A stretch of DNA of 64,000 nucleotides from Emticicia aquatilis (GTDB lineage Bacteria > Bacteroidota > Bacteroidia > Cytophagales > Spirosomataceae): contig NZ_BMKK01000002.1 of NCBI RefSeq assembly GCF_014644295.1, positions 62,001-126,000 of the forward strand, written 5' to 3'. Positions 8,281 to 64,000 of the stretch are shown here, one piece after another (positions within the stretch are counted from its first letter, which is position 1; each line of letters opens with the position of its first letter). Below the pieces are notes generated by a model. That model was not told the DNA's origin and made no database searches. It saw only the letters and a program-made list of their open reading frames with translations. A program made the translations under genes and the position numbers.

Positions 8281-8344
8281 TATAAAGTGCTGTTTGTAGT
8301 ATTTGATGAATATATATTTACAAAAACGAAAAAGCTATACAAAA

Positions 8345-9931: not shown

Positions 9932-9962
9932 CAAAATTAATCTTCACTGTTCGCTATCACAA
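9932..9962 (-). promoter_or_regulatory. Bacteroidetes-type promoter of the HU gene
   Basis: Read on the minus strand, TTG (9960-9962) is followed after 20 bases by TAATTTTG (9932-9939), a full match to TTG-N19/20-TAnnTTTG. It lies about 100 bases before the start codon in the divergent region. Confidence 0.6.
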
Positions 9963-10057
9963 GTAAAAAAAAGGAGAGTTTATCAACTATGCAGTTTTGT
10001 AAGTGAAACCGTTAAAATTGTACATTAAAAATAAATAAGGAACCAAAACATTTTGCA

Positions 10058-10774: not shown

Positions 10775-10777
10775 ACT

Positions 10778-12667: not shown

Positions 12668-12674
12668 ACGCTCA

Positions 12675-14846: not shown

Positions 14847-14885
14847 GCTAAAAATTGAGTGTTAAGTAGTCAATGGTCAATATCG

Positions 14886-14901
14886 GACCGCCGAAGCGGT
14901 C
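14886..14901. repeat. Hairpin GACCGC-CGAA-GCGGTC
   Basis: A perfect six-base GC stem with a CGAA loop lies between the FUSC and hemolysin III genes, with CGGAC and GTCCG in its flanks. It resembles the GC-rich half of the element at 31837-31877 (CGGCGGACCGCTCGAC). Confidence 0.5.
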
Positions 14902-15010
14902 GACAAGTCCGCAGTAAACCAAATATTCATAGACAACAATTTAGCCGTTTAAAAAATTGTCGATTATATTTATCCATTACTTAGGTATCTGATTACCGAA
15001 ATAAAAGCTC

Positions 15011-15640: not shown

Positions 15641-15683
15641 TTAGAATATTTACGAATTTAGGATTAGGACTGTATTAAGGATT

Positions 15684-15780
15684 GATGGAACACGGATAAC
15701 ACGGATGCAAGCATCGCAGATTAGCACGGATTTTCTTAAATATCTGTGATTATCAGCGGTTTAAAATTAGCGTTCTAAAT
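15684..15780. repeat. CACGGAT-type dispersed repeat
   Basis: Direct CACGGAT units (AACACGGATAACACGGAT) begin the element. GATTAGCACGGAT at 15719-15731 and ATCTGTGATTATC at 15739-15752 are near inverted copies and could pair. It occupies the gap between the hemolysin III gene and the next gene, with no coding potential. I recognise this type from intergenic regions of other environmental Bacteroidetes (knowledge, not searched). Confidence 0.5.
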
Positions 15781-15924
15781 TATTAAAATTGAACCCTTCG
15801 TACACTCCAAACTTAGAATTACGATTGACGAATATTATATCAGATTTTTCGAAATATATCAACATTCTAAAATCGTTAATTATTATTCCGAGCATTGGTC
15901 GCTTAAATCAATTGATTGTGAATT

Positions 15925-17082: not shown

Positions 17083-18047
17083 TTCTTTAGCCCTACAATT
17101 TCTTTGATTTTGATTAAAAATATGACAACTCCAGTTCCTGAAAGAACAAAATATAGCATGAACAAAAATGGGTCAATATCATCGGGTAAGATTTTAAATA
17201 TTGTGTAAGTAAAAGCAATGTAGCCATAAATAACCCCCATCAATAAAAATAAGAATGAATGTTTGGTACGTGCATAAACAATGCTAAGATAGGCCAGAAT
17301 GCCTACAATGATGCCATAAATAACCTTCAAGTCAAACGCAAAAAGCCCTGATAAAGCAGCAATAAATGTCAGATTTCCACCGAATACAAAATAGGTAAAA
17401 CCAAAATGCTTTTTAAGCGATTTTTGAATAGAAAACCAACCGACAATAATTAGCACAATACCGAGTGAAATAGATGTAATTACTAAATCTTGGCTATTAA
17501 AATCATTGTTTTTAAGCAAGCGAAGCGGTGTAATACTTATGCCAATCCAAGATGCTAATGCGGTAATGGCCATTGATAAAACCCCTCGGTGGTCGAAGTA
17601 GTAGGCACAGAAAAAGAACAAAACCGCAGGTAAGAAAGCCGCAAGGCCGTAGCGATTACCAAAAAAACTATATTGATATTGTAAGTATCCTTCGAGTGTA
17701 AGAAACGCCAAACATCCTCCCAAAAGTGCAAAGTCGTCAAGGTTGGTTGTTTCTTCTAATTCTTCCCAAGAAAATGGTTTTCTATGGCTAAAGGCATAAT
17801 AAAAACACCCGACACAAACTAATGCAACGAGACCAATCAGAATGTTATGTCCTATGGTATCAATGTTTTCGTAAATAACAAAACCTAAGCCTGTACTCAA
17901 AAGCATAATTCCGAGATAAAGCAGTAATCTTAGTTCCCAGTGAATAGAAAAAGGTTGAGTTGAGTCCGAAGTTTTTATTTGAGCGGCTTGTTCTTCAGAA
18001 ATAATCTTTTTTTCGGCAAGTTTGTCAACTAAATATGAGTTTTGCAT
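17079..18047 (-). CDS. DUF2157 domain-containing membrane protein
   Basis: The N-terminus (LAEKKIISEEQAAQIKT) and the following helices (ELRLLLYLGIMLLSTGLGFVIYENID) match DUF2157, a family of uncharacterised bacterial membrane proteins. The 322 residues hold about ten helices. It is first in a two-gene operon with 15925-17082 (ATGA overlap). The helix-turn-like N-terminus resembles that of its partner, so they may be ancient paralogues. Role unknown. Confidence 0.8.
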   Translation of the reverse strand: MQNSYLVDKLAEKKIISEEQAAQIKTSDSTQPFSIHWELRLLLYLGIMLLSTGLGFVIYENIDTIGHNILIGLVALVCVGCFYYAFSHRKPFSWEELEETTNLDDFALLGGCLAFLTLEGYLQYQYSFFGNRYGLAAFLPAVLFFFCAYYFDHRGVLSMAITALASWIGISITPLRLLKNNDFNSQDLVITSISLGIVLIIVGWFSIQKSLKKHFGFTYFVFGGNLTFIAALSGLFAFDLKVIYGIIVGILAYLSIVYARTKHSFLFLLMGVIYGYIAFTYTIFKILPDDIDPFLFMLYFVLSGTGVVIFLIKIKEIVGLKK

Positions 18048-18113
18048 AGGCTTTTGCTACTTTTTGTTAAAAGTACTCAATGTTTTTCATTTGCAAAATG
18101 CCAATCGTTTTTA

Positions 18114-19100
18114 TTACCCTAATCTGTTCAAATCAAAATATCGTTTTACGAGTAAATTAATGAAGCGTTTGAGATACATTTCATTCAAGAAAGTATTCGA
18201 CCAATTATCAAATCGTTGGCACTGAATACCTATATAAAAGAAGTAGAGACTTATACCAAGCATGGGTAAGATTCGCTTTTCTTCTTCCGAAATTGGCGTG
18301 ATAGATTCGTAACCTGCCATGAAACTATCCATCTTTAATTTACAAAGAGTTTCGTCTCTTTCGGTGCTGTGTAATTGCAAAATATAGTAAGCAATATCCA
18401 TACAAAGCCAGCCATTTCCACAAAAATCGAAGTCGAAAATAGTGATTTTTCCTTCTTTCGTAATGTTGAGGTTATCGAACCAAATATCCAAATGTACACT
18501 GCCTTTTCTGATTTCTTCCAGATTTACTTTAGAAAACTCGTCCCGTAAATACGCTTGTGTGGACTTCATAAAAGCCATTTCTTCCGTATCGTCTGGAAGG
18601 AAATTTGGTAAATATTCAAATACACTTCCGATTAAAACTTTGGGTGTATATTCAATTCTTTTTACATGTAAGTTTTTGGTAATCTGATGAATTTGTGCCA
18701 TCAAAACCCCAATTTGAAAGTGGTTTTGCTCATCAAAATTTAGCAATTTTTCACCCTCAGCATACGAAAACATAACAGCCAAACGCTCACCTTCGGGTGC
18801 ATTCATAGTTTGAATATAGCTTTCAGATTTATCAGTAATCGGATAAGAAATCGAAACATCATGAGCTTTAAGTAAATTGAGAAGTCTAATTTCTTCTGAA
18901 ATCTCCCTTTTACTTCGCCAATTAAAGCTGTAAACCCTGAAAATAAATCGTTTTTCGCCATCTTTAATCAAATATGTATGATTGATTCCTGCCTTTAGTA
19001 AATTACATGAAGTAAAGCTACTCAGACCATATTTTTCTTGAACAAAACGTGCCAAATGAGTAGGTGAGAGGTTAGAACTGATAACAGGAAAAGGGTTCAT
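18114..19100 (-). CDS. APH/ThrB-II-like phosphotransferase
   Basis: Protein-kinase-like fold of the aminoglycoside phosphotransferase superfamily, 328 residues. The catalytic loop is HLDIWFDN (D205, N210) and the metal aspartates follow in IFDFDFCG (223-227). The N-lobe has NHTYLIKDGEKRFIFRVY. The closest general type is homoserine kinase II or a similar small-molecule kinase, so the substrate is probably an amino acid, choline or sugar. Nothing supports antibiotic resistance. It lies after the glgE terminator on the same strand and just before the DUF2157 pair. Confidence 0.8.
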   Translation of the reverse strand: MNPFPVISSNLSPTHLARFVQEKYGLSSFTSCNLLKAGINHTYLIKDGEKRFIFRVYSFNWRSKREISEEIRLLNLLKAHDVSISYPITDKSESYIQTMNAPEGERLAVMFSYAEGEKLLNFDEQNHFQIGVLMAQIHQITKNLHVKRIEYTPKVLIGSVFEYLPNFLPDDTEEMAFMKSTQAYLRDEFSKVNLEEIRKGSVHLDIWFDNLNITKEGKITIFDFDFCGNGWLCMDIAYYILQLHSTERDETLCKLKMDSFMAGYESITPISEEEKRILPMLGISLYFFYIGIQCQRFDNWSNTFLNEMYLKRFINLLVKRYFDLNRLG

Positions 19101-19119
19101 TTTTATGAGGATTTAATTA

Positions 19120-19158
19120 AAAAGCTGTGGCACATTATTGAAGTGTACCACAGCTTTT
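19120..19158 (-). terminator. Rho-independent terminator of glgE
   Basis: A 15-base stem (19120-19134 with 19144-19158, one C-A mismatch) and a nine-base loop. On the minus strand it ends in a T-rich tract, 23 bases after the glgE stop. Confidence 0.85.
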
Positions 19159-19180
19159 ATGGATATTTTATTCTATAATT

Positions 19181-21145
19181 TTAAATATCTTCAATTCTAA
19201 ACAAGTGGAAAGGCAGAATATTTGGGTCAAGCTCTACGTAGTTTGTGTCGCCTTTCCAGATATAAGTTGCTCCCGAAATCAAATCGTGTACTCGATAACT
19301 TTCCCACTCGTTTTTGCCGATTTTCCATAATGGAATCTTCACAAAACCACCTTGGCGATTATAGCCATCAAGGCTCGTTATGCAAAGTATTCTATTTCCA
19401 TTACTGGCAGTTTTTAGATAAGCCAATAACTGCTCGTTGGCTATTTCGCAGAAATCAATATTATTTGTACTATGGAAAGCCGTATTTTCTTTACGAATAC
19501 GATTCACCTGCGAAATCACATACGTTAGTTTATTGCGGTGTTCCCAATTCCACCATTTTATTTCGTATTTCTCCGAAAACGCATATTCTTCTTTGCCTGG
19601 GTAAGGTGCATGATACATATATTCATACGTTGGGCCAAAGATTCCGTAATTCCCAACGAGCGTAGCCGCCATAAAATAACGAATCAAAAACAATGGCTCA
19701 TGGCCAGTTTGGAGCATATAAGGGTCAATATCGTGCGTATTTGGCCAAAAGTTTGGTCGGAAAAAATGCCTCATTTCGCCCTTCGTTAGCTCAGTCATAT
19801 ACTCGATGAGTTCGGCTTTTGAAGTTCGCCACACATAATAGGTATATGATTGTGTGTAGCCCAGCTTGGCCAATTGTTGCATTACTTTTGGCTTCGTAAA
19901 TGCTTCGGCCAAGAAAATCATATCAGGGTAATCTTTCTTCACCTCTGCAATTACCCATTCCCAAAAGCAAAATGATTTTGTGTGTGGGTTATCAACTCGA
20001 ATGATGCGAACGCCCCATTCGGCCCAAGTCATAATTACTGATTTGAGTTCTTGCCACAAGTTTTTCCAATCTTCGGTTTCGAAATTTACTGGATAAATAT
20101 CTTGATATTTTTTCGGAGGATTTTCGGCATATTTAATTGTACCATCTGGCAAAATCTTAAACCAATCGGGGTGTTCTTTCACCCAAGGATGGTCAGGTGA
20201 GCATTGGATAGCCAAATCCATCGCAATTTCCATGTCATATTTCTTACATTCTTCTACCAAATGCTTGAAATCAGCCAGATTTCCGAGTTCTGAATGAATA
20301 GCCGTGTGTCCACCTTCTTCCGAACCGATTCCGTAAGGTACACCCGCATCTCCTTCTTCGGCATTGACTGTATTATTTTTTCCTTTGCGGTGAGTTTTTC
20401 CGATTGGGTGAATTGGCGGAAGATAAAGCACATCAAAGCCCATTTCGGCAATACGTGGTAAAAGTGCTTCTACATCTTTAAATGTACCGTGCTTCCCAAC
20501 TTCACGAGCGGCCGAGCGTGGAAACATTGAATACCAAGCCGAGAATCCAGCTTTTTCACGGTCAACGTAAAGTTTTAATTCTTGATAACGAAATGCCGAC
20601 TGACGCTCGGGGTATTTTGTTAGCCATTCGTGCATTTGGTCGCTCATTGCAATCTGAATCGCCTCATTGTATCTGCTTTCATTGCCCATTGCTTTGGCCG
20701 CTTCTTGAATCGCCTTTTTGTCATCGCCTTTGGCCAATTTTGCCATGCCATTCAAGAATAACTCTCCTTGCATCATTTCTACTTTCAGATGCTGCCCGTC
20801 ACGTACTTTGAGGTCAACTTCGTGTTGCCAACTGGCAATGTGGTCAACCCAAGCCTCAACTGTATAAGTGTAGAAACCTTGCTTGGCAGCCGTAAATCTA
20901 CCAACCCAGCGGTCGTTGCCCATGCTGGACATAACCACTTCGCTCCAGTTTTTATCAGACTCGTGTTTGTAAAGTAATCGAGCCGCCAAATTATCGTGTC
21001 CGTCAATCAGGATGTCGGCTTCAACCGTAATAGTTTCATTGATAATCGCTTTAGTGGCAAATCGTCCGCCATCAATTTCGGGCGTTACACGCTCCACAAT
21101 AGCACGGCTCTGTCCAACGGCAGGGAAAGGAAAATGATTTTTCAT
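19181..21145 (-). CDS. glgE: Alpha-1,4-glucan:maltose-1-phosphate maltosyltransferase (GlgE)
   Basis: GlgE transfers maltose from maltose 1-phosphate to the growing end of alpha-1,4-glucans (GH13_3). From the ATG at 21145 the protein has 654 residues; a TTG seven codons upstream is less likely, because MKNHFPFPAVGQSRAIVE is the family start. An N-terminal beta domain (MaltosylTransferase N/S domain) is followed by the GH13 barrel: DVLYLPPIHPIG, the nucleophile D385 in RVDNPHTK and the acid/base E414 in FLAEAF. YRVHDLISGATYIWKG belongs to the C-terminal domain. Neither the Pep2/TreS partners nor other glycogen genes are in the window. Confidence 0.95.
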   Translation of the reverse strand: MKNHFPFPAVGQSRAIVERVTPEIDGGRFATKAIINETITVEADILIDGHDNLAARLLYKHESDKNWSEVVMSSMGNDRWVGRFTAAKQGFYTYTVEAWVDHIASWQHEVDLKVRDGQHLKVEMMQGELFLNGMAKLAKGDDKKAIQEAAKAMGNESRYNEAIQIAMSDQMHEWLTKYPERQSAFRYQELKLYVDREKAGFSAWYSMFPRSAAREVGKHGTFKDVEALLPRIAEMGFDVLYLPPIHPIGKTHRKGKNNTVNAEEGDAGVPYGIGSEEGGHTAIHSELGNLADFKHLVEECKKYDMEIAMDLAIQCSPDHPWVKEHPDWFKILPDGTIKYAENPPKKYQDIYPVNFETEDWKNLWQELKSVIMTWAEWGVRIIRVDNPHTKSFCFWEWVIAEVKKDYPDMIFLAEAFTKPKVMQQLAKLGYTQSYTYYVWRTSKAELIEYMTELTKGEMRHFFRPNFWPNTHDIDPYMLQTGHEPLFLIRYFMAATLVGNYGIFGPTYEYMYHAPYPGKEEYAFSEKYEIKWWNWEHRNKLTYVISQVNRIRKENTAFHSTNNIDFCEIANEQLLAYLKTASNGNRILCITSLDGYNRQGGFVKIPLWKIGKNEWESYRVHDLISGATYIWKGDTNYVELDPNILPFHLFRIEDI

Positions 21146-39644: not shown

Positions 39645-40991
39645 ATGAAAAAAGTAGTTTTCCCCTTTTTGTCAATTTGTTTGACTGTTTGTGTTTTGCA
39701 AGCAAGTGCTCAGCAAACAGCATCCGAATTTTTTGATATTGGTGTAAATAAAAGTAAAGCAGGCGACTATATTGGTGCATCACAAGCATATAGCACAGCC
39801 ATTGCGATGAACCCAGAAAACTCTACGAGTTATTATAACCGTGGTTTGGCAAAACAACAATTGAAAGACCACCGTGGTGCAATTTTGGATTTTGACCGTA
39901 CGATTGACCTTGACCCAAAAAATGCTTTGGCTTATTTGTATCGTGGAAAAAGCAAAAGCGACCAAGATGACCACCGTTCGGCTTTGCAAGATTATAACCG
40001 TACGATTGAATTAAATCCAGAAGATGCTTTGGCGTTTTTGTATCGTGGTATGACAAGAGCGAAGTTGTTAGATTATCGCCGTGCGATTCAAGATTTTACG
40101 AAAGTGGTAGAATTGAACACCGAAGATGACAAGAAATACCAAGCGTATTTTTCTCGTGGTGCATGTAAATCACGTTTAGAAGATTATCAAGGAAGTATCT
40201 CTGATTTTACAAAAGCAATTGATATGAACCCTAAACGTTCACAATCATTTGCAAGTAGAGGTTTTAGCCGTTTGAAAATTAATGATTTTGCTGGTGCAAT
40301 CAAAGATTTTGATGAGGCCGTGAAACTAAACCCAGAAGATAGTGAGTCGTATTTCAACCGTGGTTTTGCTAAAACAAAAATCGAGGATTTTCGTGGTGCA
40401 ATGAACGATTACGATAAAGCGATTCAACTTGACCCTAAAAATGTACGTGCATTTTATGGTAGAGGTTTCTGTAATAGCAAACTCGGCAATCAAAAAGATG
40501 CAACAAGTGATTTGACAAAAGCAATCGAGGTTGACAATGTAAATATTGATTCTAAAGTTTATTATACTGGTCGTATGACTAAAAATACTTTAGATGAATT
40601 ACGCAATGTGGTACAAGAAAGAAGTCGTATCAACGAGTTTTCAGAAGACCGTTCGGAAGCATTTTATAGTCGTGGTATTTCGAAGTTCAAAACTGGCGAT
40701 GGTAAAGGTGCAATCATTGATTTGAATAAATCAATCGAATTAAATCCTACTTATGCCGAGGCTTATTTCTCACGAGGATTGGTTCGTTCATCAATGGGAT
40801 TACAGAAAGAAGCTTTACAAGACTGTTCAAATGCTATCAAATTAAACCCTAAATATGGTGAAGCATACTACGTAAGGGGTATCATCAAACACGCTTTAGG
40901 CGACGAAAACGCTGGTTGCTATGACCTTAGCCGTGCTGGTGAATTAGGTTATTCGGCTGCGTATAATGTGATTCGTGAATATTGTAACTAA
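39645..40991 (+). CDS. Exported tetratricopeptide repeat protein
   Basis: 448 residues. A signal peptide (MKKVVFPFLSICLTVCVLQASA) is followed by about eleven TPR units with the classic pattern (YYNRGLAKQQLKDHRGAI, AYLYRGKSKSDQDDHRSAL, YFNRGFAKTKIEDFRGAM). Adjacent units differ little, indicating expansion by duplication. TPR proteins are scaffolds; here it is likely periplasmic or outer-membrane attached. Its own promoter and terminator make it monocistronic. Partner unknown. Confidence 0.85.
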   Translation: MKKVVFPFLSICLTVCVLQASAQQTASEFFDIGVNKSKAGDYIGASQAYSTAIAMNPENSTSYYNRGLAKQQLKDHRGAILDFDRTIDLDPKNALAYLYRGKSKSDQDDHRSALQDYNRTIELNPEDALAFLYRGMTRAKLLDYRRAIQDFTKVVELNTEDDKKYQAYFSRGACKSRLEDYQGSISDFTKAIDMNPKRSQSFASRGFSRLKINDFAGAIKDFDEAVKLNPEDSESYFNRGFAKTKIEDFRGAMNDYDKAIQLDPKNVRAFYGRGFCNSKLGNQKDATSDLTKAIEVDNVNIDSKVYYTGRMTKNTLDELRNVVQERSRINEFSEDRSEAFYSRGISKFKTGDGKGAIIDLNKSIELNPTYAEAYFSRGLVRSSMGLQKEALQDCSNAIKLNPKYGEAYYVRGIIKHALGDENAGCYDLSRAGELGYSAAYNVIREYCN

Positions 40992-41015
40992 GATTTTTTA
41001 GAAACAAAATTATAT

Positions 41016-41049
41016 AAAAAATCTCCGTCGTTTGGGCGGAGATTTTTTT
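41016..41049. terminator. Terminator between the TPR gene and the Ddl-like gene
   Basis: AAAAAATCTCCG / CGGAGATTTTTT, a 12-base stem with a nine-base loop and seven T residues. It serves the plus-strand TPR gene and also the converging minus-strand gene. Confidence 0.9.
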
Positions 41050-41091
41050 GTTTTTAGGAACTAAGTAATTATGAATTATAGACGAACAACA

Positions 41092-42861
41092 TTATAACTC
41101 AATCAAAGTCTCAGAGTCACATTGGAAAATAAATTGAACACTTTCAGCCAAATCGGCTTCAGATAATTTCTTCACTTGCCAATCAAAACTTCCTGCATAT
41201 TTTGCTGTAATTTTTTCTGCTTTTCGCATAATTTCGGCGATGAAAGGGTGTTTCGGTTTTCCAATATTTTGCCCAAAGTCTTGAATATCAGCCTTGAACA
41301 TCAAATTTACAGGAATTTTATACATTTGTCCGTTACGTGCGGCACAAATTGGCACTGGCTCGTAAGCAGTTGAAGAGGCGTATTCGCCCAGTTTTTTCTG
41401 AGCAGTTTTGTATTCTTCGTCGGTTTCTCCGAAAATAATTGCTACTTTTTTTCTATTGGCCGCTACTCGTTCTTCAATCAGATTATCTATTTTCTCGAGC
41501 AAATTACGGAGTGATACAGTATTTTTTCCGTTACGGATACGCTCACGTACTGACTGACGAATGAAATATGTAATAGATTGAGTAACTGTTAGTCCGATTT
41601 CGGCCATTTGCTTGAAAATCAGCGAAGCAGGCGACATGCCAGGCAAAGTGTTGGGGTCATGTAGTAAAACTCTGCTGTCAGGAGTCAAGAATCCATCAAT
41701 ACGAGTAACAACACTAAAACCAAGACTATTGAATGTTTTAAGCAAGCTTTCGTGAATTTTATGAAGGTTTTCGAGGCTTGTTTCAACTGGAATACGTTTT
41801 TTTGTAACGTTCGACTTGTATTTTGATTTGAAATCGAAAGTTTGAATTTCGCCGTAAATTTCGGTAGGAGGTAGGGCAATAGCTGTGCCATCGTCGTGCT
41901 GAATTACGCCACACGAAAACTCCTGTCCAACCACAAATTCTTCAATCATTACGTGGTCTTCGGCATTGGCTGATATTGCTGTTACTGAATCAAGCGTAAA
42001 TAGAAGTGCATCTAATTCCTCCATCAATTCGACAGGGTGATGCAAGATTTTACCATTCACATAAAGCGGAAAACCAATGCCTTCATCAAGATTGGAGGTT
42101 TTTTCCATCAAATGACGTTTTTGACGGTCGGTCATTTTTTCCCAGTCACGTTTCAAGAATGTTACTTCAAAGAAACATTGTTGAACGGCTTTCGTAAACT
42201 CTTCGAGGCTTCGTTTACGAACAATAGCGACGCCAATTGATGAACCTTGGTGCGGAGCTTTAACCACAAACGGAAAACCGATATTATTGATTAGGTCAGT
42301 AAACATTTTTGAGCGGTCAGCAACCTGCCATTCTTCACGAGTAAATGTGACCATTTTCTTTTTCTGACCTGTAACGAGCGAAATGAGCTTGTTTTGCATC
42401 GGCTTATCGATACCCACCGACGAACCCATCAGACCCGGCCCCATGTACGGAATACCGTACCATTCGAGTAAACCTTGAATCGCACCATCTTCGGCTTGTG
42501 GGCCGTGCATAATGACAAACGCAAAATCCATGATTTGTGAAAAATCAGTAGGTTGGATTTGTTTTCCGACTTTATAAATGAGTTTGTAAAGTTGGGTTTC
42601 GTTGAGCTCGCCCAAAGATTCGATATAGACTCTAAAACCACGATTGAGGTTTTTAGAAGGGAAGAAATCACGAATTGATTCTTCGTAGAGCAATTCTGGA
42701 TTTATCTGAATGAAATGCCCCAAGCTATCGACAAAGATAGGCACAGGCTCAAAAATAGCCTTGTCAATATGCTCAAAGGCAGTTTTACCGCCTAAATACG
42801 AAATTTCTCTTTCTCGTGCTTGTCCACCGAAAAAAACACCGACTCTGATTTTATTTGCCAT
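41092..42861 (-). CDS. D-alanine--D-alanine ligase-like ATP-grasp protein with an extra C-terminal domain
   Basis: From the ATG at 42861 (MANKIRVGVFFGGQARERE) there are 589 residues, against about 310-360 in ordinary Ddl. The first part has the Ddl order: pre-ATP-grasp domain with GGQAREREIS, HGPQAEDGAIQGLLEW, PYMGPGLMGSSVGIDK, PFVVKAPHQGSSIGVAIV and the metal-site region HDPNTLPGMSPASLIF. It should make D-Ala-D-Ala or a related dipeptide for cell-wall synthesis. Residues about 471-589 (KKVAIIFGETDEEYKTAQKK, then AYEPVPICAARNGQMYKIP) repeat the pattern of the N-terminal pre-ATP-grasp domain (AIFEPVPIFVDSLGHFIQI), without a second ATP-grasp. Whether it replaces the cell's normal Ddl is unknown. 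Confidence 0.82.
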   Translation of the reverse strand: MANKIRVGVFFGGQAREREISYLGGKTAFEHIDKAIFEPVPIFVDSLGHFIQINPELLYEESIRDFFPSKNLNRGFRVYIESLGELNETQLYKLIYKVGKQIQPTDFSQIMDFAFVIMHGPQAEDGAIQGLLEWYGIPYMGPGLMGSSVGIDKPMQNKLISLVTGQKKKMVTFTREEWQVADRSKMFTDLINNIGFPFVVKAPHQGSSIGVAIVRKRSLEEFTKAVQQCFFEVTFLKRDWEKMTDRQKRHLMEKTSNLDEGIGFPLYVNGKILHHPVELMEELDALLFTLDSVTAISANAEDHVMIEEFVVGQEFSCGVIQHDDGTAIALPPTEIYGEIQTFDFKSKYKSNVTKKRIPVETSLENLHKIHESLLKTFNSLGFSVVTRIDGFLTPDSRVLLHDPNTLPGMSPASLIFKQMAEIGLTVTQSITYFIRQSVRERIRNGKNTVSLRNLLEKIDNLIEERVAANRKKVAIIFGETDEEYKTAQKKLGEYASSTAYEPVPICAARNGQMYKIPVNLMFKADIQDFGQNIGKPKHPFIAEIMRKAEKITAKYAGSFDWQVKKLSEADLAESVQFIFQCDSETLIEL

Positions 42862-42912
42862 TATTAAATTTTGTTCACAGTTTTTGGTCTGCAAAAATAT
42901 TTCAATATATTC

Positions 42913-43542
42913 CTAATTTAGGTCTTTCTTTAAATATATTACACTATCAATCACAAATAGTACTCCTTGATTAGTCAGGACATTTTCGTCATGTAAGTCC
43001 TCCAAAATAATACCTAATTCGTTATTGTAGTAATCATTGTTTTTCTTTCTTTCAAAACCATTGGCTTTTAGAAAATCCCTTACTTTTATCAAATCTGTAG
43101 GTTCGGTCGATTCTACAAAAGGCTGCCTAACTACCGAGCAAAGTGTTTGTTCATTCTTATAAAAACCTATCAGTTCATAAGAAGTAGCTGGAAATAAATA
43201 ATTATGAATAAGAAGGCTAATGAAATAATCTTTCCATGATTCGTAAAAAATCGTATCGTTGATTTTTATAACATTCCTTCCATCATAATCAAGGTAAACC
43301 TTTTGTTCTGCTCCTTCTGCTATATATGTACTTTCATCTAACTTATCATTGTACCACAACTTATTGATGTCGGAAAATAAGATGAGTTTCTTTATCTCAT
43401 TTTCTTTATTGAAGTATTCTGATTTTTCAGTCTTAATACTTGCTCTCTTACCTTCTCTAATGAAAAAGAGGGCTGTTTTGATAAGATTTCTTTCTGAATT
43501 TCGGCTATTTCCTGAAATGACATTTCTGATTTCATGGTTCAT
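42913..43542 (-). CDS. Small kinase-fold protein resembling polyvalent-protein kinases
   Basis: 209 residues with no signal peptide. GAEQKVYLDYDGRNVIKIND is like a glycine loop plus catalytic lysine strand, and ILEDLHDENVL (D182, H184, N187) is like the HxDxxxxN catalytic loop of kinase-fold phosphotransferases. D199 in FVIDSVI would be the metal aspartate. I know this arrangement from kinase domains in polyvalent phage and conjugative-element proteins, but here it stands alone. No mobile genes are adjacent. It lies between nifU and the Ddl-like gene on the same strand, with a terminator upstream. Substrate and role unknown. Confidence 0.6.
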   Translation of the reverse strand: MNHEIRNVISGNSRNSERNLIKTALFFIREGKRASIKTEKSEYFNKENEIKKLILFSDINKLWYNDKLDESTYIAEGAEQKVYLDYDGRNVIKINDTIFYESWKDYFISLLIHNYLFPATSYELIGFYKNEQTLCSVVRQPFVESTEPTDLIKVRDFLKANGFERKKNNDYYNNELGIILEDLHDENVLTNQGVLFVIDSVIYLKKDLN

Positions 43543-54747: not shown

Positions 54748-55311
54748 ATGAATTACTCTTTCAATATAATAGAAGAATATAAATCACTAAGTCCGAATAT
54801 TCAGGCAGATATATTGGCTAAATTGAAAATTTTAGAATTTGCCAAACACGATTTCTTATTGAAAAAAGGAGAAGTCTGCAAAGGTATTTATATCATTGAA
54901 AAAGGTTGTTGTCGAACTTATCTGGAAGAAGGTGGCAGAGAAATTACTACTTCTTTTGGCATAGATACAAACATTATTTGTAGTGCTTACAGTTATTTAT
55001 CGCAGACAGTTTCGGAAGAATATATTCAAACGCTTGAAGATACATTTTGCTATTTTATTTCTTACAAAAGTATCCAGTCACTTCTTGAAAAATACGTAGA
55101 GTTTAATGTTTTTGTAAGAAAAATATATGAATCATTGCTAATCAATGAAATAAATCTACTCAATTCGATTAGAACCAAAAGTGCTTTAGAGCGATACGAA
55201 CTCTTTATGGAAAAAACACCTAAGATATTGCAGCGGGTGCCACTCAGCCATTTGGCCTCATTTTTAGGTATGAGTAAAGAAACATTGAGCAGGATGAGAA
55301 GTAAGATATAG
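54748..55311 (+). CDS. Crp/Fnr family transcriptional regulator
   Basis: 187 residues. The cNMP-binding-type beta roll (about 20-120) contains FLLKKGEVCKGIYIIEKGCC and RTYLEEGGREITTSFG, and the short C-terminal winged-helix (about 165-187: LSHLASFLGMSKETLSRMR) matches the Crp recognition helix. The region that would bind cAMP lacks a clear PFGE-type phosphate loop, so the ligand is uncertain. It converges on the GG-leader peptide gene with a shared terminator, so it may or may not control that gene. Confidence 0.88.
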   Translation: MNYSFNIIEEYKSLSPNIQADILAKLKILEFAKHDFLLKKGEVCKGIYIIEKGCCRTYLEEGGREITTSFGIDTNIICSAYSYLSQTVSEEYIQTLEDTFCYFISYKSIQSLLEKYVEFNVFVRKIYESLLINEINLLNSIRTKSALERYELFMEKTPKILQRVPLSHLASFLGMSKETLSRMRSKI

Positions 55312-55317
55312 AAAACT

Positions 55318-55348
55318 AAAAAAAGCCTTGAAACTCAAGGCTTTTTTT
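55318..55348. terminator. Bidirectional terminator between the Crp/Fnr gene and the GG-leader peptide gene
   Basis: AAAAAAAGCCTTGA / TCAAGGCTTTTTTT, a 14-base perfect stem with a three-base loop and A/T tracts on both sides. It ends both converging genes. Confidence 0.9.
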
Positions 55349-55376
55349 AGTTTTTGGGCTACAAGTTTTCAAAAAA

Positions 55377-55622
55377 TTATTTGCAAATACCTAACGACAA
55401 GCTAAATGAAAACGAGATTGTTGGAAGGCAAGTTGTTGGTTTTGGAGCACATGGGTTTGAATAACCTCCAGTGTTACAAGATGGTGGCGGTGGAGTGTAG
55501 CAAGGTGCAGGTTGGCATGTTGTTTTGGGTGCACATAATAATGATAAAAGTCCGAAAGTACCACCTTGTACTTCTTCTGCGTTTGTGATTTCAAACGATG
55601 AGAAATTGTCTAATGATTTCAT
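55377..55622 (-). CDS. Putative RiPP/bacteriocin-like precursor with double-glycine leader
   Basis: An 81-residue peptide gene with ATG start. The leader (MKSLDNFSSFEITNAEEVQGG, 1-21) has hydrophobic residues at -12 and -4 and Gly-Gly at -2/-1, the cleavage site of C39 peptidases. The core (22-81) has seven Cys (30, 36, 41, 49, 58, 65, 80), eleven Pro and fifteen Ser/Thr, with P-P-P-P at 44-47. Such a composition suits disulfide, thioether or O/S-glycosyl modification. A GT2 gene and a SpaB_C-like gene lie upstream on the same strand. The peptide family is unknown to me; a stray small secreted protein is the alternative. Confidence 0.6.
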   Translation of the reverse strand: MKSLDNFSSFEITNAEEVQGGTFGLLSLLCAPKTTCQPAPCYTPPPPSCNTGGYSNPCAPKPTTCLPTISFSFSLSLGICK

Positions 55623-55674
55623 TGTGTTTATTTTTTAAGGTTCACGAACATTTAGACTTTGGTTCACTCAATAG

Positions 55675-55692
55675 ATTATTTGTCTAAATAAT
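55675..55692. promoter_or_regulatory. Palindrome ATTATTT-GTCT-AAATAAT before the precursor gene
   Basis: Seven-base arms with a four-base spacer, 53 bases upstream of the precursor start. The spacing is like that of Crp/Fnr-family operators (TTGAT-N4-ATCAA), but the arms differ from that consensus. AT-rich palindromes arise easily by chance. Confidence 0.3.
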
Positions 55693-55699
55693 TACTTTA

Positions 55700-55707
55700 C
55701 AAATATA
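55700..55707 (-). promoter_or_regulatory. Putative -7 box of the precursor gene
   Basis: On the minus strand TATATTTG matches TAnnTTTG, 78 bases before the start codon. No TTG at the -33 position, so support is partial. If real, the precursor has its own promoter. Confidence 0.4.
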
Positions 55708-55833
55708 TGATTTTTAAGTAATTATGAGCCTTAAAAATACCCTCATTTTGCCTTTTTTGATATATGTCAAAAAATAAAAAAAAGTTATTAAGTGGTATGA
55801 TTTTTGCAATAATTTTAATAATTTCGATTGAAA

Positions 55834-56586
55834 TCAATATTGTAGTACTGCTTTCGTAGTGTACAGTAATTGAGGGGCAAAATTTCTGATTTCGAGCATC
55901 GTACATATACTTTCTACCAATGTATGAAAAGGTGCTTTATTTAAAAAATCAGACGCAACATTCAGCCAATTTATTACCCAGTTTTCTATTTTTTCTTCAG
56001 ACTCTATTTGTTGCACTTCTCTATAAAAATTAACTAACGGCGAGTTATTATCAATGTTATTCGGGGTATTTTCGAGCGTTTCGACTAATTCTTTCTTAAT
56101 TTGTTCTTTATTTGCTTTTACCAAAGCCATAAAAATTAACTGAATAGCAAAGTTGATTCTGTTTTTTTCTTCTACAAAAAAATCGTTGTATCGGAGTGCA
56201 TCAACCACAACCGAACTTAGGTTGTTCAAAAAAATGACATATTCGTTACTTGCCAAGTTGTCAGGATAAGTGATATTAATCGTTTGAGGAATATATTTGA
56301 TATTATGCAAGGTGTTTTCGGGAACATTCCTGAATAATGGGTCTTCACTGACAGTTGTTTCGGACACAGGTAGATAGACTAAATAGGAGGAAATAGTATC
56401 TAATTGATTCTTTATAATGCTTGGGCTGAACACTTTTAGGTGATACCCCCGTTCGGAATCGAAAAAGAAAAAGAATTGATTCTTGTCTAAGGTTTCTTCT
56501 AAAAGAGAAAGAATCGCTTTCCAATTTCTTTTATGAGAAAATATCATGAATCCCTCGAGTTGATTATTCGTAAAAAGATTTTTCAT
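55834..56586 (-). CDS. Diverged SpaB_C-like (thiopeptide-type/LanB elimination) protein, tentative
   Basis: 250 residues, no signal peptide. The pattern of the family is seen in weak form: FFFFFDSERGYHLKVFS (38-54) is like the usual ff-iRY-d-gpHLRlR block, and KYIPQTINITYPDNLASNEY is like the yePEieRYGG-aE block. The C-terminal LEIRNFAPQLLYTTKAVLQY is in the place of the NRL-E region. SpaB_C domains remove glutamate during dehydration in LanB or act as cyclases in thiopeptide synthesis. Here the glutamylation domain is missing. The start overlaps the stop of the GT2 gene by four bases, so translation is coupled. It precedes the precursor gene by 211 bases. The family call is inference and needs a profile search. 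Confidence 0.45.
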   Translation of the reverse strand: MKNLFTNNQLEGFMIFSHKRNWKAILSLLEETLDKNQFFFFFDSERGYHLKVFSPSIIKNQLDTISSYLVYLPVSETTVSEDPLFRNVPENTLHNIKYIPQTINITYPDNLASNEYVIFLNNLSSVVVDALRYNDFFVEEKNRINFAIQLIFMALVKANKEQIKKELVETLENTPNNIDNNSPLVNFYREVQQIESEEKIENWVINWLNVASDFLNKAPFHTLVESICTMLEIRNFAPQLLYTTKAVLQY

Positions 56587-57581
56587 GCCAGAATAATTGG
56601 ATTGGTATAATCGAAATTTTTATAAACTATTCCGCTTCCGAAAGACTCATCATTCACAGTTGTTCGTTTATTGTGAAAATTATCCATAAATCGAAGTTTA
56701 TTGCTTAGTTGAGAATAAAAATTGATGGTCGAAATCAGCGTTTCTTGCTTCGTTACTACGGTTGCATTCGCTACTAAATCTTCATTAAAAAGGCCTTTTT
56801 CGATAGAATCTTCAAGAATGTAATATCTATTTAGAAATTCGAGCGGGCGAATCGTCTCAATTTCTATACTTGGATTGCTATACATGCTATCAATAATCTG
56901 GGCGGATTCGTAAGTATTATCTTTATAAAGAATAGTCAATTTTGATTGCCAATAACTAAGATTTTCTACAAAAATGGCTTGTAGATGATTGTAAATAAAC
57001 TCGTTTTTGATTCGCTCTTCTTCGGTGTGTGTAATGGCTTTTAGGAATTCTGTGTCATTAAATGTCGCTTCTGTTCGCCCTAAATTGGTTAAACGATTCT
57101 TGAGGTCGTTGTCCTCAAAACCATACCCTTTAATTGCTTCATCGTATCCCCTGATTTGTAGAAAATCACTTTTTGTAGTCGATATTTTCCCAAAAGTATC
57201 GCTCAGATTATTGTTTTGTGGAGCAATAAAAATCGAATTATGCTGCTGAAACATAGCCGTAAGGTATTCAGCGAAACCTTTTCCTGCATAATTATCGGCA
57301 TCTAAATTACAAACGATATTGCCACTGGCTAATCTAAAAGCCATATTTCGAGAATGGCTGCGGTTATAGAAAGTTGGTTGAGTAGTTCTGAAATAAGCAA
57401 CCTTACCGCAAAATTGGTCGAAATTTTGCTGCACCCAATCTTCTAAACCATCGGTAGAATTATAATCTAAAATGACAAACTCGATGTTTTCGGTAGCGAT
57501 GTTGTCGGCTAAATTCATCGGAAGGGTTTCCTTCAGATGATATAAGCGATTCATAACCGTCGTGCAAAATGAAATTTTCAA
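56583..57581 (-). CDS. GT2 family glycosyltransferase (TTG start)
   Basis: 332 residues. MKISFCTTVMNRLYHLKETL begins directly as a GT-A family 2 enzyme. The nucleotide-sugar site is LDADN with DAD (94-96), NRSHSRNMAFRLASG is the acceptor-side block, and RGYDEAIKGYGFEDNDL (144-160) has the GxG-ED-xDL pattern of the galactosyltransferase-like GT7-C region. A C-terminal domain of about 130 residues follows (from 205) with no family I know. The start codon is TTG; no in-frame ATG is near. It is separated from the giant-protein gene by a terminator. In the neighbourhood of a RiPP-like precursor, it could glycosylate Ser/Thr/Cys as SunS does in glycocins (inference). Confidence 0.82.
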   Translation of the reverse strand: MKISFCTTVMNRLYHLKETLPMNLADNIATENIEFVILDYNSTDGLEDWVQQNFDQFCGKVAYFRTTQPTFYNRSHSRNMAFRLASGNIVCNLDADNYAGKGFAEYLTAMFQQHNSIFIAPQNNNLSDTFGKISTTKSDFLQIRGYDEAIKGYGFEDNDLKNRLTNLGRTEATFNDTEFLKAITHTEEERIKNEFIYNHLQAIFVENLSYWQSKLTILYKDNTYESAQIIDSMYSNPSIEIETIRPLEFLNRYYILEDSIEKGLFNEDLVANATVVTKQETLISTINFYSQLSNKLRFMDNFHNKRTTVNDESFGSGIVYKNFDYTNPIILA

Positions 57582-57691: not shown

Positions 57692-60600
57692 TCAATTATT
57701 ACAAACTCTGATTTGTGCTTTAAATACTGTACCAGAATTTGCTACAAAACCAGCTGTTAGTTGTATTGCTTTCCCTGCTTGGTAAGTAACGTTTGCAGGA
57801 GCAACAATTTTACTTGAAGCTGTAATTGTTTGCGAGGCTTGTTCGGTTAAAGTTCCAGTCAAATCAGTTGTAATTGATTTTGTTGCTGGAATGACTGAAA
57901 CCGTGCTTATAGATGGATTTCCTGCTAAAGCTTGGTTCGATGAAGCCACTCTTATGCGATAATTGCTTCCTCCAGCGGTTGCCTGTGGAATTTGACACGT
58001 AACTGTCCCAACCACATTTGTTAAACCTATAATAGTTGGAGTTCCAAAATTACCATTAGCATCTGAAAGTTGAACTTGGAAATTATTACTTGGATTGAAA
58101 GAACCAGTTGTCGAGAAAGTAACATCAACCGAACTACCTGCACAAAGTGTATTATTTGTTAGGGTTGGAGCAGAAATGGTTGCCAAATTCCCAACGATTG
58201 TAAAGGTCGTATTAACTGGACCATAAACAATACCACCGCCTCGATTGTCTTGAGCGTATCCTGTAATGGTGATAGTGTAAGTGCCAGGAATGAGATTTCT
58301 ACCAAATACATCGTTTCCTAAATTATCGAACATAGCAAAAAGTTGCACATTTTGCAAGATTGTCCAGTTTTGTTCAGGGCCAATGATAGTCATATCAACA
58401 CTTTCGATAGTAATGTTTTGACAAATAGGAACTGCAAGAATTGAGACTGGTTCTGCGAGTTGTTGAATAGTCATACCATTAGAAAGCGAGAAAAGCGGCT
58501 GGAAAGGATTGCCTGCTTTAACATACTGCAAATCAATAATTTGTGTACAAGGTTCAACCCCAGAAACAACAACATTAGTTGTAGCGGTTGCTGTACAAAC
58601 ACCAGTTGTAGCTGTGACTGTATAAATACCTCCATTGATTGTCAGGGCATTAGGGATAGTTGGGTTAGTGTTTGTACTATTAAAATTATTTGGACCTACC
58701 CAAGAATAACTTGTACCACCATTTGCAGACAATACAATAGATTGCCCAATAGTATAAGGACCAGTATTTGAAGCTGAAATATTGAGATTATTTGTGAATG
58801 TTATGCTTGTTGAAGCGGTAGCTGTACAACCATTATTACCAGTAACTGTGACGGTATAATTACCAGCGGATGTAATATTAATTGTGGCACTTGTAGAACC
58901 ATTCGACCAAAGGTAAGTTCCACCACCTGTTGCGGTTCTTGTGACACTTGTTACAGCACAACTTAGGTTATCCGAGCCATTGATTTGAGCATTCGGTAAT
59001 GAACCGTCATTTGTTACAGAAGTCGTAGCGGTAGCCGTACAACCATTCGTACCAGTAACTGTGACGGTATAAATACCAGCGGAAGTAATATTAATAGTTG
59101 CACTTGTAGAACCATTTGACCAAAGATAAGTTCCCCCACCTGTTGCGGTTCTTGTGACACTTGTTACGGCACAACTTAGGTTATTTGTACCAGTAATTTG
59201 CACATTCGGCACGCTGTTATCAATAGAAATATTAGTTGAAGCGGTAGCCGTACAACCATTATTACCAGTAACTGTGACGGTATAATTACCAGCGGATGTA
59301 ATATTAATTGTGGCACTTGTAGAACCATTCGACCAAAGGTAAGTTCCTCCACCTGTTGCGGTTCTTGTGACACTTGTTACAGCACAACTTAGGTTATTTG
59401 TACCAGTAATTTGCACATTCGGCACGCTGTTATCAATAGAAATATTAGTTGAAGCGGTAGCCGTACAACCATTATTACCTGTTACAGTGACGGAATAATT
59501 ACCAGCGGATGTAATATTAATAGTTGCACTTGTAGAGCCATTCGACCAAAGATAAGTTCCCCCACCTGTTGCAGTTCTTGTGACACTTGTTACGGCACAA
59601 CTTAGATTATTTGTACCAGTAATTTGCACATTCGGCAATGAGCCGTCGTTTGTTACATTGGTAGTAGCGGTAGCCGTACAACCATTATTACCAGTAACTG
59701 TGACGGTATAATTACCAGCGGAAGTAATATTAATTGTGGCACTTGTAGAGCCATTCGACCAAAGGTAAGTTCCACCACCTGTTGCGGTTCTTGTGACACT
59801 TGTTACAGCACAACTTAGATTATTTGTACCAGTAATTTGCACATTCGGCAATGAGCCGTCGTTTGTTACATTGGTAGTAGCGGTAGCCGTACAACCATTA
59901 TTACCTGTTACAGTAACGGAATAATTACCAGCGGAAGTAATATTAATAGTTGCACTTGTAGAACCATTTGACCAAAGATAAGTTCCCCCACCTGTTGCGG
60001 TTCTTGTGACACTTGTTACGGCACAACTTAGATTATTTGTACCAGTAATTTGCACATTCGGCACGCTGTTATCAATAGAAACATTGGTAGTAGCGGTAGC
60101 CGTACAACCATTATTACCTGTTACAGTGACGGAATAATTACCAGCGGAAGTAATATTAATTGTGGCACTTGTAGAGCCATTCGACCAAAGGTAAGTTCCC
60201 CCACCTGTTGCGGTTCTTGTGACACTTGTTACGGCACAACTTAGATTATTTGTACCAGTAATTTGCACATTCGGCACGCTGTTATCAATAGAAACATTAG
60301 TTGAAGCGGTAGCCGTACAACCATTATTACCTGTTACAGTGACGGAATAATTACCAGCGGAAGTAATATTAATTGTGGCACTTGTAGAGCCGTTTGACCA
60401 AAGATAAGTTCCCCCACCTGTTGCGGTTCTTGTGACACTTGTTACAGCACAACTTAGATTATTTGTACCAGTAATTTGCACATTCGGCACGCTGTTATCA
60501 ATAGAAACATTGGTAGTAGCGGTAGCTGTACAACCATTATTACCTGTTACAGTGACGGAATAATTACCAGCGGATGTAATATTAATAGTTGCACTTGTAG

Positions 60601-63600
60601 AGCCATTCGACCAAAGATAAGTTCCCCCACCTGTTGCGGTTCTTGTGACACTTGTTACGGCACAACTTAGGTTATCCGAGCCATTGATTTGAGCATTCGG
60701 TAATGAACCGTCATTTGTTACAGAAGTCGTAGCGGTAGCCGTACAACCATTATTACCAGTAACTGTGACGGTATAAATACCAGCGGAGGTAATATTAATT
60801 GTGGCACTTGTAGAGCCGTTTGACCAAAGATAAGTTCCCCCACCTGTTGCGGTTCTTGTGACACTTGTTACGGCACAACTTAGGTTATTTGTACCAGTAA
60901 TTTGCACATTCGGCACGCTGTTATCAATAGAAACATTAGTTGAAACGGTAGCCGTACAACCATTATTACCTGTTACAGTGACGGTATAATTACCAGATTG
61001 AGAGACACTTACAGTGGCATTTGTTCCCAAAGAATTGCTCCAATTGTACGTTCCTCCACCTGTTGCAGTGAGCGAAATACTTGGATTCGAGCAAGTTATT
61101 TGCCCACCTCCATTGATGCCTGCAGTTGGATTACTATTGATTATAACTTGTGTCGTGGTACTTAACGTACAATTATTTGCATTTGTAACGGTTAATGTAT
61201 AAACTCCATTGGCTGCCGTTGTAACATTTGAAATACTTGGATTTTGAAGACTTGATGTAAATGAATTGGGTCCTGTCCAAGAGTAATTGGTCATGCCTGG
61301 AGTCGAATTTAAGGTCAGGGTTTGTCCAACACATTTCGGAGAATCTGAACTTGGATTAGGATTTGAAGTAGAATTCACTACAACGGACGTTGTAGCACTT
61401 GCTGTACAACCAAAACTATTTGTCTGTGTAATGGTGTATGTTCCGCCTGCTGATATTGTTACATTAGAAATATTTGGATTTCTTAATGAAGATGTAAATC
61501 CATTAGGTCCTGCCCATAAATAAGTTAAACTTGCAGCCGATGTTAAGTTGAGCAAATTTCCACTACAAACAGGCGAATTAGAACTTGGATTGGGTACTGG
61601 CAAGGAATTTATCGAAACATTTACCGCCACAAATCCGCTTTGGCAAGTCACATTTTCACATCGTACATTGTAAGTTGTTGGTGAGGTTAGATTAGGCGTT
61701 ACAAAAGGCGAGCCTGTAAATGGAATTGCTACCGAGCTGGAATTATACCAAACTGGTGAGCCGCTGGCACAAGTAGCGGTTAATGAAGCAGATGTTCCAC
61801 TACAAATCGTTGGATTGTTTGTGCCTGTGGGTGTAGCAATAACCGCACTTACATCACCCGTTATCGTCCAACCTTTACCACCATTACTTGTAGCTAAAAC
61901 TAAATTAGCTCTATCGGCCGCAGATGCACAGTATTGCCTGCCTGTTGCCCCCATATTTCTGCCAGTTACAGTACCTGCATTGAATCCTGTGAGAGTTGCA
62001 TCATAATTAGCAATGCTCATACCACAATTGTTAAGAAAAAAGCTTAAATTAACATTTGCATTAAGTTTCGTACCCCAAGCTCCCAAACTTTGGTTGAATG
62101 CACTGGCATTATCAAACATTATACCCATATTTGTAACGGCTGATACATTCCAACTGCTGATGTCTTGATTAAAAGCACTTGCTCCATTAAACATATAAAC
62201 CATACTTGTAACGGCTGATACATCCCAATTACCTATGGGCTGATTGAATGCTATCGCTCCCTTAAACATATCACTCATGCTTGTCACTGCCGAGACGTTC
62301 CAACTACCTATGTTTCCGTTAAAAGCAATAGCATTAGAAAACATAGAATTCATACCTGTAACAGATGATACATCCCACGCACCAATATTTTGATTAAATG
62401 CATTAGCACTAGCAAACATATAACTCATGTTATCTACATTTGATACGTCCCAGCTACCTATGTTTTGATTAAAGGCATCAGCATTCATAAACATAGCATT
62501 CATTTTTGTTACGGCTGATACATTCCATGCACCAATATTCTGATTAAATACAGTAGCGTTAGAAAACATAGAACCCATATCTGTAACAGATGATACATCC
62601 CACGCACCAATATTTTGATTAAATGCACTTGCATCATTGAATAGAGCCGTCATCCTTGTTACAGTCGATACATTCCATCCACTAATGTCCTGATTGAATA
62701 CTGTAGCACCACTAAACATACCCTCCAAATTTGTTACACCCGATATAACCCATGAGTTTATATTTGATGGACTATTTAGAGATGAACAGTTAAAAAACAT
62801 ATATGACATATTCCTAACAGATGATAGATTTGGTACGTCAGTAGCCAGAATATTCAAGTTATTACATCCACCAAAAGCAGCACTAAAATCTGTCCACGCC
62901 ACATTACCCCATTGTTTTATTTCAATCAACCTACTCCTATCAGGGCCACTATTAATAGATATTCTTTGAAAATTTGTTGGATAAATACTTAAATCAATCG
63001 TTGCCCCCGATGGCAGGCCTGTAATATTTGGTGAACCCGTAAATGACCCCGAACCAGTAGCACCTCCACCACCTACTTCTTGCCATGTATAATTGACAGT
63101 TCCGCCAGTAGAAGCATTAAAACCAAACTGGGTGCTTCCAGACCCAGTCGTAGCCAAGTTCCAACGAGTGATAAACGGCGTTCCAGTCGGATTTACTACT
63201 TGGCTCACCGTATTGCTGGTACTCGCTGCATATTGTGTAGCATTTCCTGCATAAGATGCCGTAGCACTGTGCGTTCCGAATGTCAAACCTGAAATAGAAA
63301 ACGTAGCAATACCTGATGAGTTGGTTGTAGATGTATAATTTGAAGCACCTATTGTAAGTGTAACAGTCTGACCATTTAACCCGATTGAATTGGAAGTAAG
63401 AGTTGCTGTAAAGACAACATTATTCCCAACTATCGAAGGATTTGTACCTGAACTCAAACTCAAACTCGTTTCAGCCAAACCATTACCCTGAATGGCAAAT
63501 GTATAAGGATTTTCATTAGAATCATTATTGGCAATACTCACCGTAGCTGTCCTTGTTCCACCTGATGAAGGGTCGAAAGTTACGGTAAATGTAGTAGAAC

Positions 63601-64000
63601 TTGAAGCGTTGATAGTGGCAGGTAGTGTGATTCCTCCAACTGTAAATTCGCTGTTTCCTGTACTTATTGAGCTTATATTTAATGTTGCTGAGCCTGTATT
63701 TTCAATTGTAAAAGTCCTCACAAATGTTCCAGATGTTACGTTTTGAGAACCAAAATTAGTATGGTCGATAACTGAAGGGGTTACATCACCGCTTACAATA
63801 GTGGTTCCGTTACCTTTGAGATTGATTTCAGGCAATGAATTAATAACATCCGAATCAGTTGCGGAGTTATTACCTGGAACAGGGTCTGTAGCGGTTGAGC
63901 TAACAGTTGCAGTATTACTCAAAGTACCTGTTGCCGACCCACTCAATGTAGCTGATGCAGTATAAGTAAACGAACCTCCTGCTGGTAGATTGATAGTTTC
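57692..64000 (-). CDS. Giant multidomain repeat surface protein (5' part outside window)
   Basis: Partial gene: the frame is open to the window edge, giving 2102 residues to the stop; a TTG-initiated start at 63946 is not a real start. From the N-side: a DUF11-like end, a choice-of-anchor D domain (about 63470-63830), an Ig-like/Big domain (ending near 63170), BspA-type repeats (62073-62825), Ig-like/PKD-like blocks with [18 protein letters not shown] patterns, ten 71-residue repeats (58784-60913), and a final 3-coathanger-stack-like C-terminus ([19 protein letters not shown]). It is probably exported and attached to the cell surface as an adhesin. No C-terminal type IX tail of the usual kind is seen. 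Confidence 0.85.
58784..60913 (-). repeat. Ten tandem 213-bp repeats in the giant gene
   Basis: Ten in-frame units of 71 codons (58784-60913), each holding [36 protein letters not shown] and [13 protein letters not shown] (one unit has GTNGC). Units differ mainly in NYS/NYT/IYT and in the last ten residues (VSIDNSV, VTNDGSL, ISIDNSV). A diverged unit precedes them ([20 protein letters not shown]). The near identity indicates recent duplication or gene conversion. Confidence 0.9.
62073..62825 (-). repeat. BspA-type (DUF285) 25-residue repeats
   Basis: About ten units of 25 residues (75 bp) with pattern [20 protein letters not shown]. This is the BspA leucine-rich-like surface repeat known from Bacteroidetes and Mycoplasma proteins, involved in binding host or matrix proteins in characterised members. 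Confidence 0.85.

Follow-up and report, generated by a model that had tools for sequence, protein, structure and literature searches.

A candidate RiPP-type locus of Emticicia aquatilis that pairs a GT2 glycosyltransferase with a SpaB_C-like protein lacking the known eliminase residues

What might be made by three neighbouring genes of Emticicia aquatilis that place a GT2 glycosyltransferase and a SpaB_C-like protein beside a small double-glycine (GG) peptide? The genes occupy positions 55,377–57,581, all on the minus strand, of the window, the 64,000-nucleotide stretch analysed here (assembly GCF_014644295.1, contig NZ_BMKK01000002.1, positions 62,001 to 126,000). Open reading frame (ORF) coordinates agree with the layout given in a first-pass annotation made from the letters alone: the GT2 gene (56583..57581; 332 residues, TTG start; ORF list and Pfam) shares four bases (56583–56586) with the SpaB_C-like gene (55834..56586; 250 residues without the known eliminase residues, from profile comparison and a residue table), and the precursor peptide gene lies at 55377..55622. 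The 81-residue peptide does carry the Gly-Gly leader noted there, which is kept across six loci; GG stands at residues 20–21, the leader through GG is encoded by 55560–55622, and the 60-residue core (55380–55559) contains 7 Cys, 11 Pro, 8 Thr and 7 Ser.

The moderately favoured answer is a locus for a ribosomally synthesised and post-translationally modified peptide (RiPP), whose product would be secreted, glycosylated and rich in disulfides, made with the GT2 enzyme and a non-eliminating SpaB_C-like partner. We infer the following route. The peptide would be produced with its GG leader, and in the cytoplasm the GT2 enzyme would glycosylate the Cys/Pro/Thr-rich core at Ser, Thr or Cys, with at least one sugar. 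As its non-eliminating partner, the SpaB_C-like protein would most likely bind and present the precursor. The leader would then be cut at GG, and the core exported, by a C39-peptidase ATP-binding cassette (ABC) exporter working with HlyD- and TolC-type proteins, whose genes lie on another contig here and in-cluster in relatives; the cysteines of the core may form disulfides after export.

The GT2 gene, the 250-residue gene and a GG peptide were found together in six genomes of two genera (G000, the window's own, with G004, G010, G056, G589 and G594). The five relatives are an Emticicia metagenome-assembled genome (MAG), which falls in one genus group with the window's genome, a Cytophagaceae MAG, Lacihabitans sp. 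CCS-44, L. soyangensis and a Bacteroidetes MAG. At all six loci the GT2 and 250-residue genes are neighbours in one order with a GG Cys/Pro/Thr-rich peptide near, a TolC-type gene lying between peptide and pair at locus L009; the pair overlaps by four bases at four of the six and is at most 10 bases apart in L018, L020 and a further locus, L143. A search of 98 genomes with the 250-residue protein matched five, one of them by chance, and a profile of its family (A3) matched seven of 222 genomes of the taxonomic family, six of them real and one inside an unrelated ORF. A3 matches were rejected in G089 and G224, where they contain stops, and in G429 and G568, where they lie inside long ORFs read by eye as AnmK-like and DnaE-like. 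Between the window and locus L008, the ratio of nonsynonymous to synonymous rates (dN/dS) is 0.056 for the peptide (5 nonsynonymous and 21 synonymous differences), 0.121 for the 250-residue gene and 0.119 for GT2; the saturated L018/L020 comparison of GT2 was left unused. The peptide is under purifying selection, and the three genes are not chance ORFs, because they recur in six genomes and show low dN/dS between the window and L008.

The leaders of the six loci are close to MKSLDxFxxxEIxNxEEVxGGTFGLLS. Together with three sibling peptides encoded elsewhere in the window's genome, they make nine peptides with cores of 60–77 residues containing 7–9 Cys, 10–20 Pro and 7–14 Thr, and in seven of the nine the Gly/Cys end follows a tail in which Ser alternates with aromatic residues. 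Family-library searches with the 81-residue peptide and its relatives gave no useful match, and a peptide profile built with the window's peptide and its three siblings found only those four in the window's genome. One sibling leader, among 11 peptides compared, resembles the GG-leader precursors of TIGR04149 (E 0.0026; 17.6 bits, below the 25-bit cut-off); a further difference from those precursors is that no radical SAM gene was noticed in the GT2/250-residue loci read. A small ORF ahead of the siblings (L011, 8594–8773, plus strand) has a leader-like start (MTNFVPFEVSTNEMNQMVG), no GG and a different core, and may be a precursor that has degenerated or diverged. At L018 (7694–7960) and L010 (7085–7381) the C39 gene adjoins another Cys-rich GG peptide, a more divergent one; none was seen so placed in L020. 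GTGAACC-type motifs ahead of some precursors were seen and dropped.

The earlier remark that the system has no exporter does not extend beyond the window. At four of the six loci (L009, L010, L018 and L020), genes for a C39 ABC transporter and for HlyD- and TolC-type proteins lie in or beside the cluster, identified by Pfam for the three genes of L009 and elsewhere by reading, with similarity also used for C39. Around the window and L008, no such cassette was found in the sequence that was read (the G004 genome was not searched for C39). The search of the window's genome for a C39 exporter that the annotation had suggested found two C39 genes, on contigs C4 and C11; on C4, three sibling peptides are followed by the C39 gene, an OEP gene (Pfam) and a HlyD-like gene (by reading; its Pfam matches are weak).

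Is the 250-residue protein related to SpaB_C? Neither Pfam nor NCBIfam gives it a SpaB_C match, and it has no useful family match at all; for this protein and the peptides, matches to DUF7708, MinC_N, BimA and the like were taken as chance. A PF14028 search of the window's genome returned two LanB proteins, not the 250-residue protein, and in a PDB search the 250-residue profile gave one chance-level match (E 1.5) and a SpaB_C protein of genome G108 one match at E 0.21. The connection runs through a 165-residue protein of the distant genome G281 (locus L022), which A3 finds at E 2.7e-4, which matches PF14028 at E 4.3e-4 (21 bits, below the 24.4 cut-off), and whose relatives are stand-alone SpaB_C proteins. 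Aligned by hhalign to seven stand-alone SpaB_C proteins, A3 scored 55.4 (probability 93%) against a maximum of 22.0 in 100 column shuffles; with the 165-residue bridge removed, the remaining six gave 41.4 (69%; maximum of 100 shuffles 22.8). The stand-alone set combined with 29 mostly LanB-fused SpaB_C domains scored 37.2 (shuffle maximum 22.8) and a 14-row canonical set, A6, scored 32.5 (maximum of 60 shuffles 24.2); the GT2 profile, used as a control, reached 14.3 and 16.0. Adding the protein encoded beside GT2 in genome G543 gave the six-protein comparison a score of 62.8 (95%), which is not independent because that neighbour was chosen by position and matches weakly alone (0.7% against A6). 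The 250-residue protein is likely a remote SpaB_C homolog: the label first given to it survives through profile–profile comparison with stand-alone SpaB_C proteins, and not through any Pfam or NCBIfam match.

Eliminase residues were located by HMMER alignment to NisB (4wd9), with positions counted by hand: R784 and R786 in HxRxR, R826 in ERYG and H961 ahead of HNNR. In an alignment of 24 proteins, in which the C-terminus of the most divergent ones is uncertain, none of the nine GT2-linked SpaB_C-like proteins keeps any of the four residues. Among the other 15, the HxRxR arginines are present in 14, R826 in 13 and H961 in all 14 that reach it, the exceptions being the 165-residue L022 protein and, for R826, also G143. 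In all nine GT2-linked proteins the canonical sequence before HxRxR is replaced by a shared RG pair. According to the available part of PMC4979651, NisB R786A, R826A and H961A glutamylate without eliminating, and the accessible text of PMC4341554 reports that H961A still binds the precursor. Gene coupling (overlap or at most 10 bases), the loss of eliminase residues and the analogy with NisB H961A together suggest that the SpaB_C-like protein may act as a partner of GT2.

No LanB glutamylation domain is present in the cluster. Lant_dehydr_N had no match in G056, G589 and G594 (each 99% complete) or in G108 (100%), and matched in four of the eight genomes that hold the GT2 subfamily: G000 with two, G004 with one (partial; genome 81% complete), G010 with two and G543 with four. 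Because the eliminase residues are absent in all nine proteins and three full-cluster genomes have no detectable LanB, a lanthipeptide is unlikely, and the product is probably not one. The same two results make dehydration and lanthionine formation unlikely, and with them the dehydrated core that the first-pass annotation had offered as an option.

The GT2 assignment made at first sight is borne out by Pfam (Glycos_transf_2, E 4.5e-11; Glyco_transf_7C, E 6.6e-8). The protein has the motifs NLDADN and GYDEA..GFED and, as an alignment of nine proteins from eight genomes shows, a C-terminal region of ~140 residues common to the subfamily. In overlapping genome samples searched with the GT2 profile (A4, cut-off E<=1e-30), matches were found in 2 of 395 genomes (class), 7 of 222 (family) and 1 of 395 (phylum; the window's own genome), a total of nine copies in eight genomes. 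SunS, the glycosyltransferase of sublancin, is a GT2-type enzyme. The SunS model TIGR04195 matched one of six GT2 members (E 0.012), the window protein not being among the matches listed, and by sequence comparison the GT2 is outside the SunS family. The nearest solved structures are other GT2, chondroitin or galactosyl enzymes, all weak (best E 2.1e-4). A plasmid search gave one partial match (35.6% over residues 1–161), and 61 relatives on viral contigs (25–45% identical) were set aside as ordinary GT2; their matches reach no further than residue 247 in any case and ~200 in most.

One GT2 copy adjoins a SpaB_C-like gene in all eight genomes, the ninth (the second of G108) being ~2.5 kb away, and the pair occurs in three cluster kinds: with a GG Cys-rich peptide, in a pinensin-type lanthipeptide cluster and in a cluster resembling those for nonribosomal peptide synthetases (NRPS-like). 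In the pinensin-type class I cluster (L143, G543:C6:259001-279000, 5539–18582), a GT2 of this subfamily and its degenerate SpaB_C-like neighbour are accompanied by LanC, C39, HlyD, a LanB N-terminal protein and a separate, canonical SpaB_C; the leader of the peptide encoded there is of the pinensin family (NF038180, 37.6 bits; cut-off 24), and the cluster product is a candidate glycosylated lanthipeptide. The NRPS-like cluster (L069, G108:C5:1001-20000) has adenylation, carrier and condensation domains, an FAD enzyme, two GT2s of the subfamily and two stand-alone SpaB_C proteins (PF14028 E 1.2e-8 and 2.9e-12), which stand back to back with one GT2; C39 and HlyD-like genes are near. A wider proposal, put forward tentatively, is that Bacteroidota hold a RiPP modification module in which a chemistry-less SpaB_C eliminase would be the precursor-recognition subunit of a peptide glycosyltransferase, as a portable two-gene unit of all three cluster kinds, the first being a simple disulfide type.

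Several observations weigh against the favoured reading. PF14028 matches none of six members of the 250-residue family, and A3 scores at about shuffle level against the 29 mostly LanB-fused domains (23.0, 3%; shuffles with other sets reach 22–24) and at chance level against the two G108 SpaB_C proteins alone (20.9, 1%). The loss of R784 is mild in four of the nine GT2-linked proteins, which have Lys there, and the effect of NisB R784A is slight according to the available text of PMC4341554. Position is part of the reason for counting the G543 neighbour, which has only a weak match to A3 (hhalign probability 32%; BLASTP to the window protein E 0.001) and none to SpaB_C. At the G108 locus the pair was seen without a GG peptide. 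On C4 the sibling peptides have no adjoining GT2, and the transporter there shares 51–53% identity with those in the clusters and 51% with that of C11; because this identity does not favour the in-cluster transporters over the C11 one, the C4 transporter is proposed as the exporter of the window's peptide from its siblings. The best curated matches of the GT2, in six of six members and all far below cut-off, are of polysaccharide type (EpsD, AglG, HpsE). A GT2 pair lacking a small Cys-rich GG peptide had been named beforehand as an outcome that would count against a RiPP; all six loci have such a peptide, and the G108 pair points in the refuting direction. The RiPP reading as first proposed gains from the conserved GG peptide, from C39 in the clusters of relatives and from the three cluster kinds, and glycosylation of the core stays a prediction from gene content.

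Among alternatives, the one that survives best, itself unlikely, makes the SpaB_C-like protein an active enzyme of another kind, such as a pyridine-synthase-like, cyclising one, with GT2 as a tailoring enzyme beside it. Thiopeptide [4+2] enzymes are homologous to the elimination domain, and stand-alone homologs in class I clusters have been suggested for other chemistry (PMC7268733, as far as its available text goes); the two SpaB_C proteins of G108 have weak matches to TbtD/PbtD (E 1.9e-6 and 1.3e-7; 27–31 bits, cut-off 325), and the RG pair common to all nine proteins also counts for it. Pyridine formation, however, requires dehydroamino acids, and three cluster genomes have no Lant_dehydr_N match; nor was a YcaO-like gene noticed in the loci read (ORF reading; no family search was run).

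The polysaccharide-type matches would be accounted for if GT2 builds a surface polysaccharide or glycolipid and stands beside a secreted peptide incidentally, a reading that we consider improbable. The subfamily adjoins a SpaB_C-like gene in eight of eight genomes, with a C39 gene within the stretches read in six of them; the GT2 gene overlaps its neighbour, and no polysaccharide operon was noticed on reading around the six loci. Least credible, to the point of being very improbable, is a class I lanthipeptide glutamylated by a LanB from elsewhere with the 250-residue protein eliminating in trans: two LanB genes on C11 and the Ser, Thr and Cys of the core would permit it, whereas the eliminase residues missing from all nine proteins, the lack of a LanB N-terminal match in G056, G589 and G594, the separate canonical SpaB_C of the G543 cluster with all its eliminase residues and the lack of a visible LanC on ORF reading of the six loci (no family search was made) speak against it.

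A glycosylated RiPP with a non-eliminating SpaB_C-like partner would belong with the RiPPs as a variant, neither glycocin nor lanthipeptide. Glycocins (sublancin, glycocin F and thermoglycocin, with SunS, GccA and ThgS) likewise have a GG Cys-rich precursor and a C39 ABC exporter (available part of PMC12457901); both are found here, with the exporter genes of the window's genome on a separate contig, and a SunS-family glycosyltransferase is not. The locus differs from them further in its SpaB_C-like partner gene, its Pro/Thr-rich cores of 60–77 residues with 7–9 Cys, its HlyD/TolC-type export and its Bacteroidota host. The split LanB of pinensin-type and thiopeptide clusters also places a stand-alone SpaB_C-related protein in a RiPP setting, and extra elimination-domain homologs, possibly of other chemistry, are known in class I clusters (PMC7268733, in part); the present locus differs in having no glutamylation protein in the cluster, in not keeping the eliminase residues and in the GT2 pairing. 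Glycosyltransferases near RiPP genes were previously noted in Bacteroidales, where areas with a GlyS (peptide S-glycosyltransferase) call are similar in that respect and differ in their radical SAM and LanC-like genes; a SpaB_C partner is not named in the available portion of PMC10352776.

The individual components are of known kinds. The combination had been judged outside the standard RiPP classes, and searches of the open-licence literature found no report of a GT2/SpaB_C pair. If the reading is right, the locus would represent a Gram-negative route to glycosylated RiPPs and a small, portable glycosyltransferase-plus-adaptor pair, and it would explain what some of the orphan stand-alone SpaB_C proteins do, a question left open in the accessible text of PMC7268733. 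With three short genes, the role of non-eliminating SpaB_C proteins is directly testable.

The peptide gene is flanked by candidate transcription signals. A TATATTTG box (TAnnTTTG, which we take to be the Bacteroidota -7 consensus) lies at 55700..55707 on the minus strand, 85 nt 5' of the peptide ATG, and such a box is found 73–85 nt before the ATG at all six loci (0.14 expected per 160 nt at the window's own density). On its 3' side, a terminator-like hairpin of 20 pairs with a T-run (55312..55354, minus strand) is common to the peptide gene and a convergent gene; the stretch has two such sites against 1.8 in shuffles, a number not above chance, the one at the peptide gene being the long one. 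The upstream box and the 20-pair hairpin suggest that the peptide has its own transcript. The convergent gene encodes a Crp-like regulator (54748..55311, plus strand; cNMP_binding by Pfam for the window copy) and recurs at all six loci, the relatives being identified by reading ORFs; at L018 (11270–11835, Lacihabitans sp. CCS-44) it is split in two ORFs, which may mean a disrupted gene or a sequencing error. Just upstream of GT2 on the same strand, 57692–63946 encodes a 2084-residue repeat protein with DUF285 stretches and many Ig/PKD-like repeats, which was rejected as a member of the system, L008 having a different gene at that place. Elsewhere in the window's genome, contig C11 carries a lanthipeptide-like locus (L012, G000:C11:12001-32000, 7724–19819) with the two LanB genes (~G000:C11:26745-29726 and 40620-43508) and a C39 transporter; it also encodes a protein that reads as radical-SAM-like and four or more Cys-rich peptides whose leaders are of LSLDKET- and LSFDKET-type.

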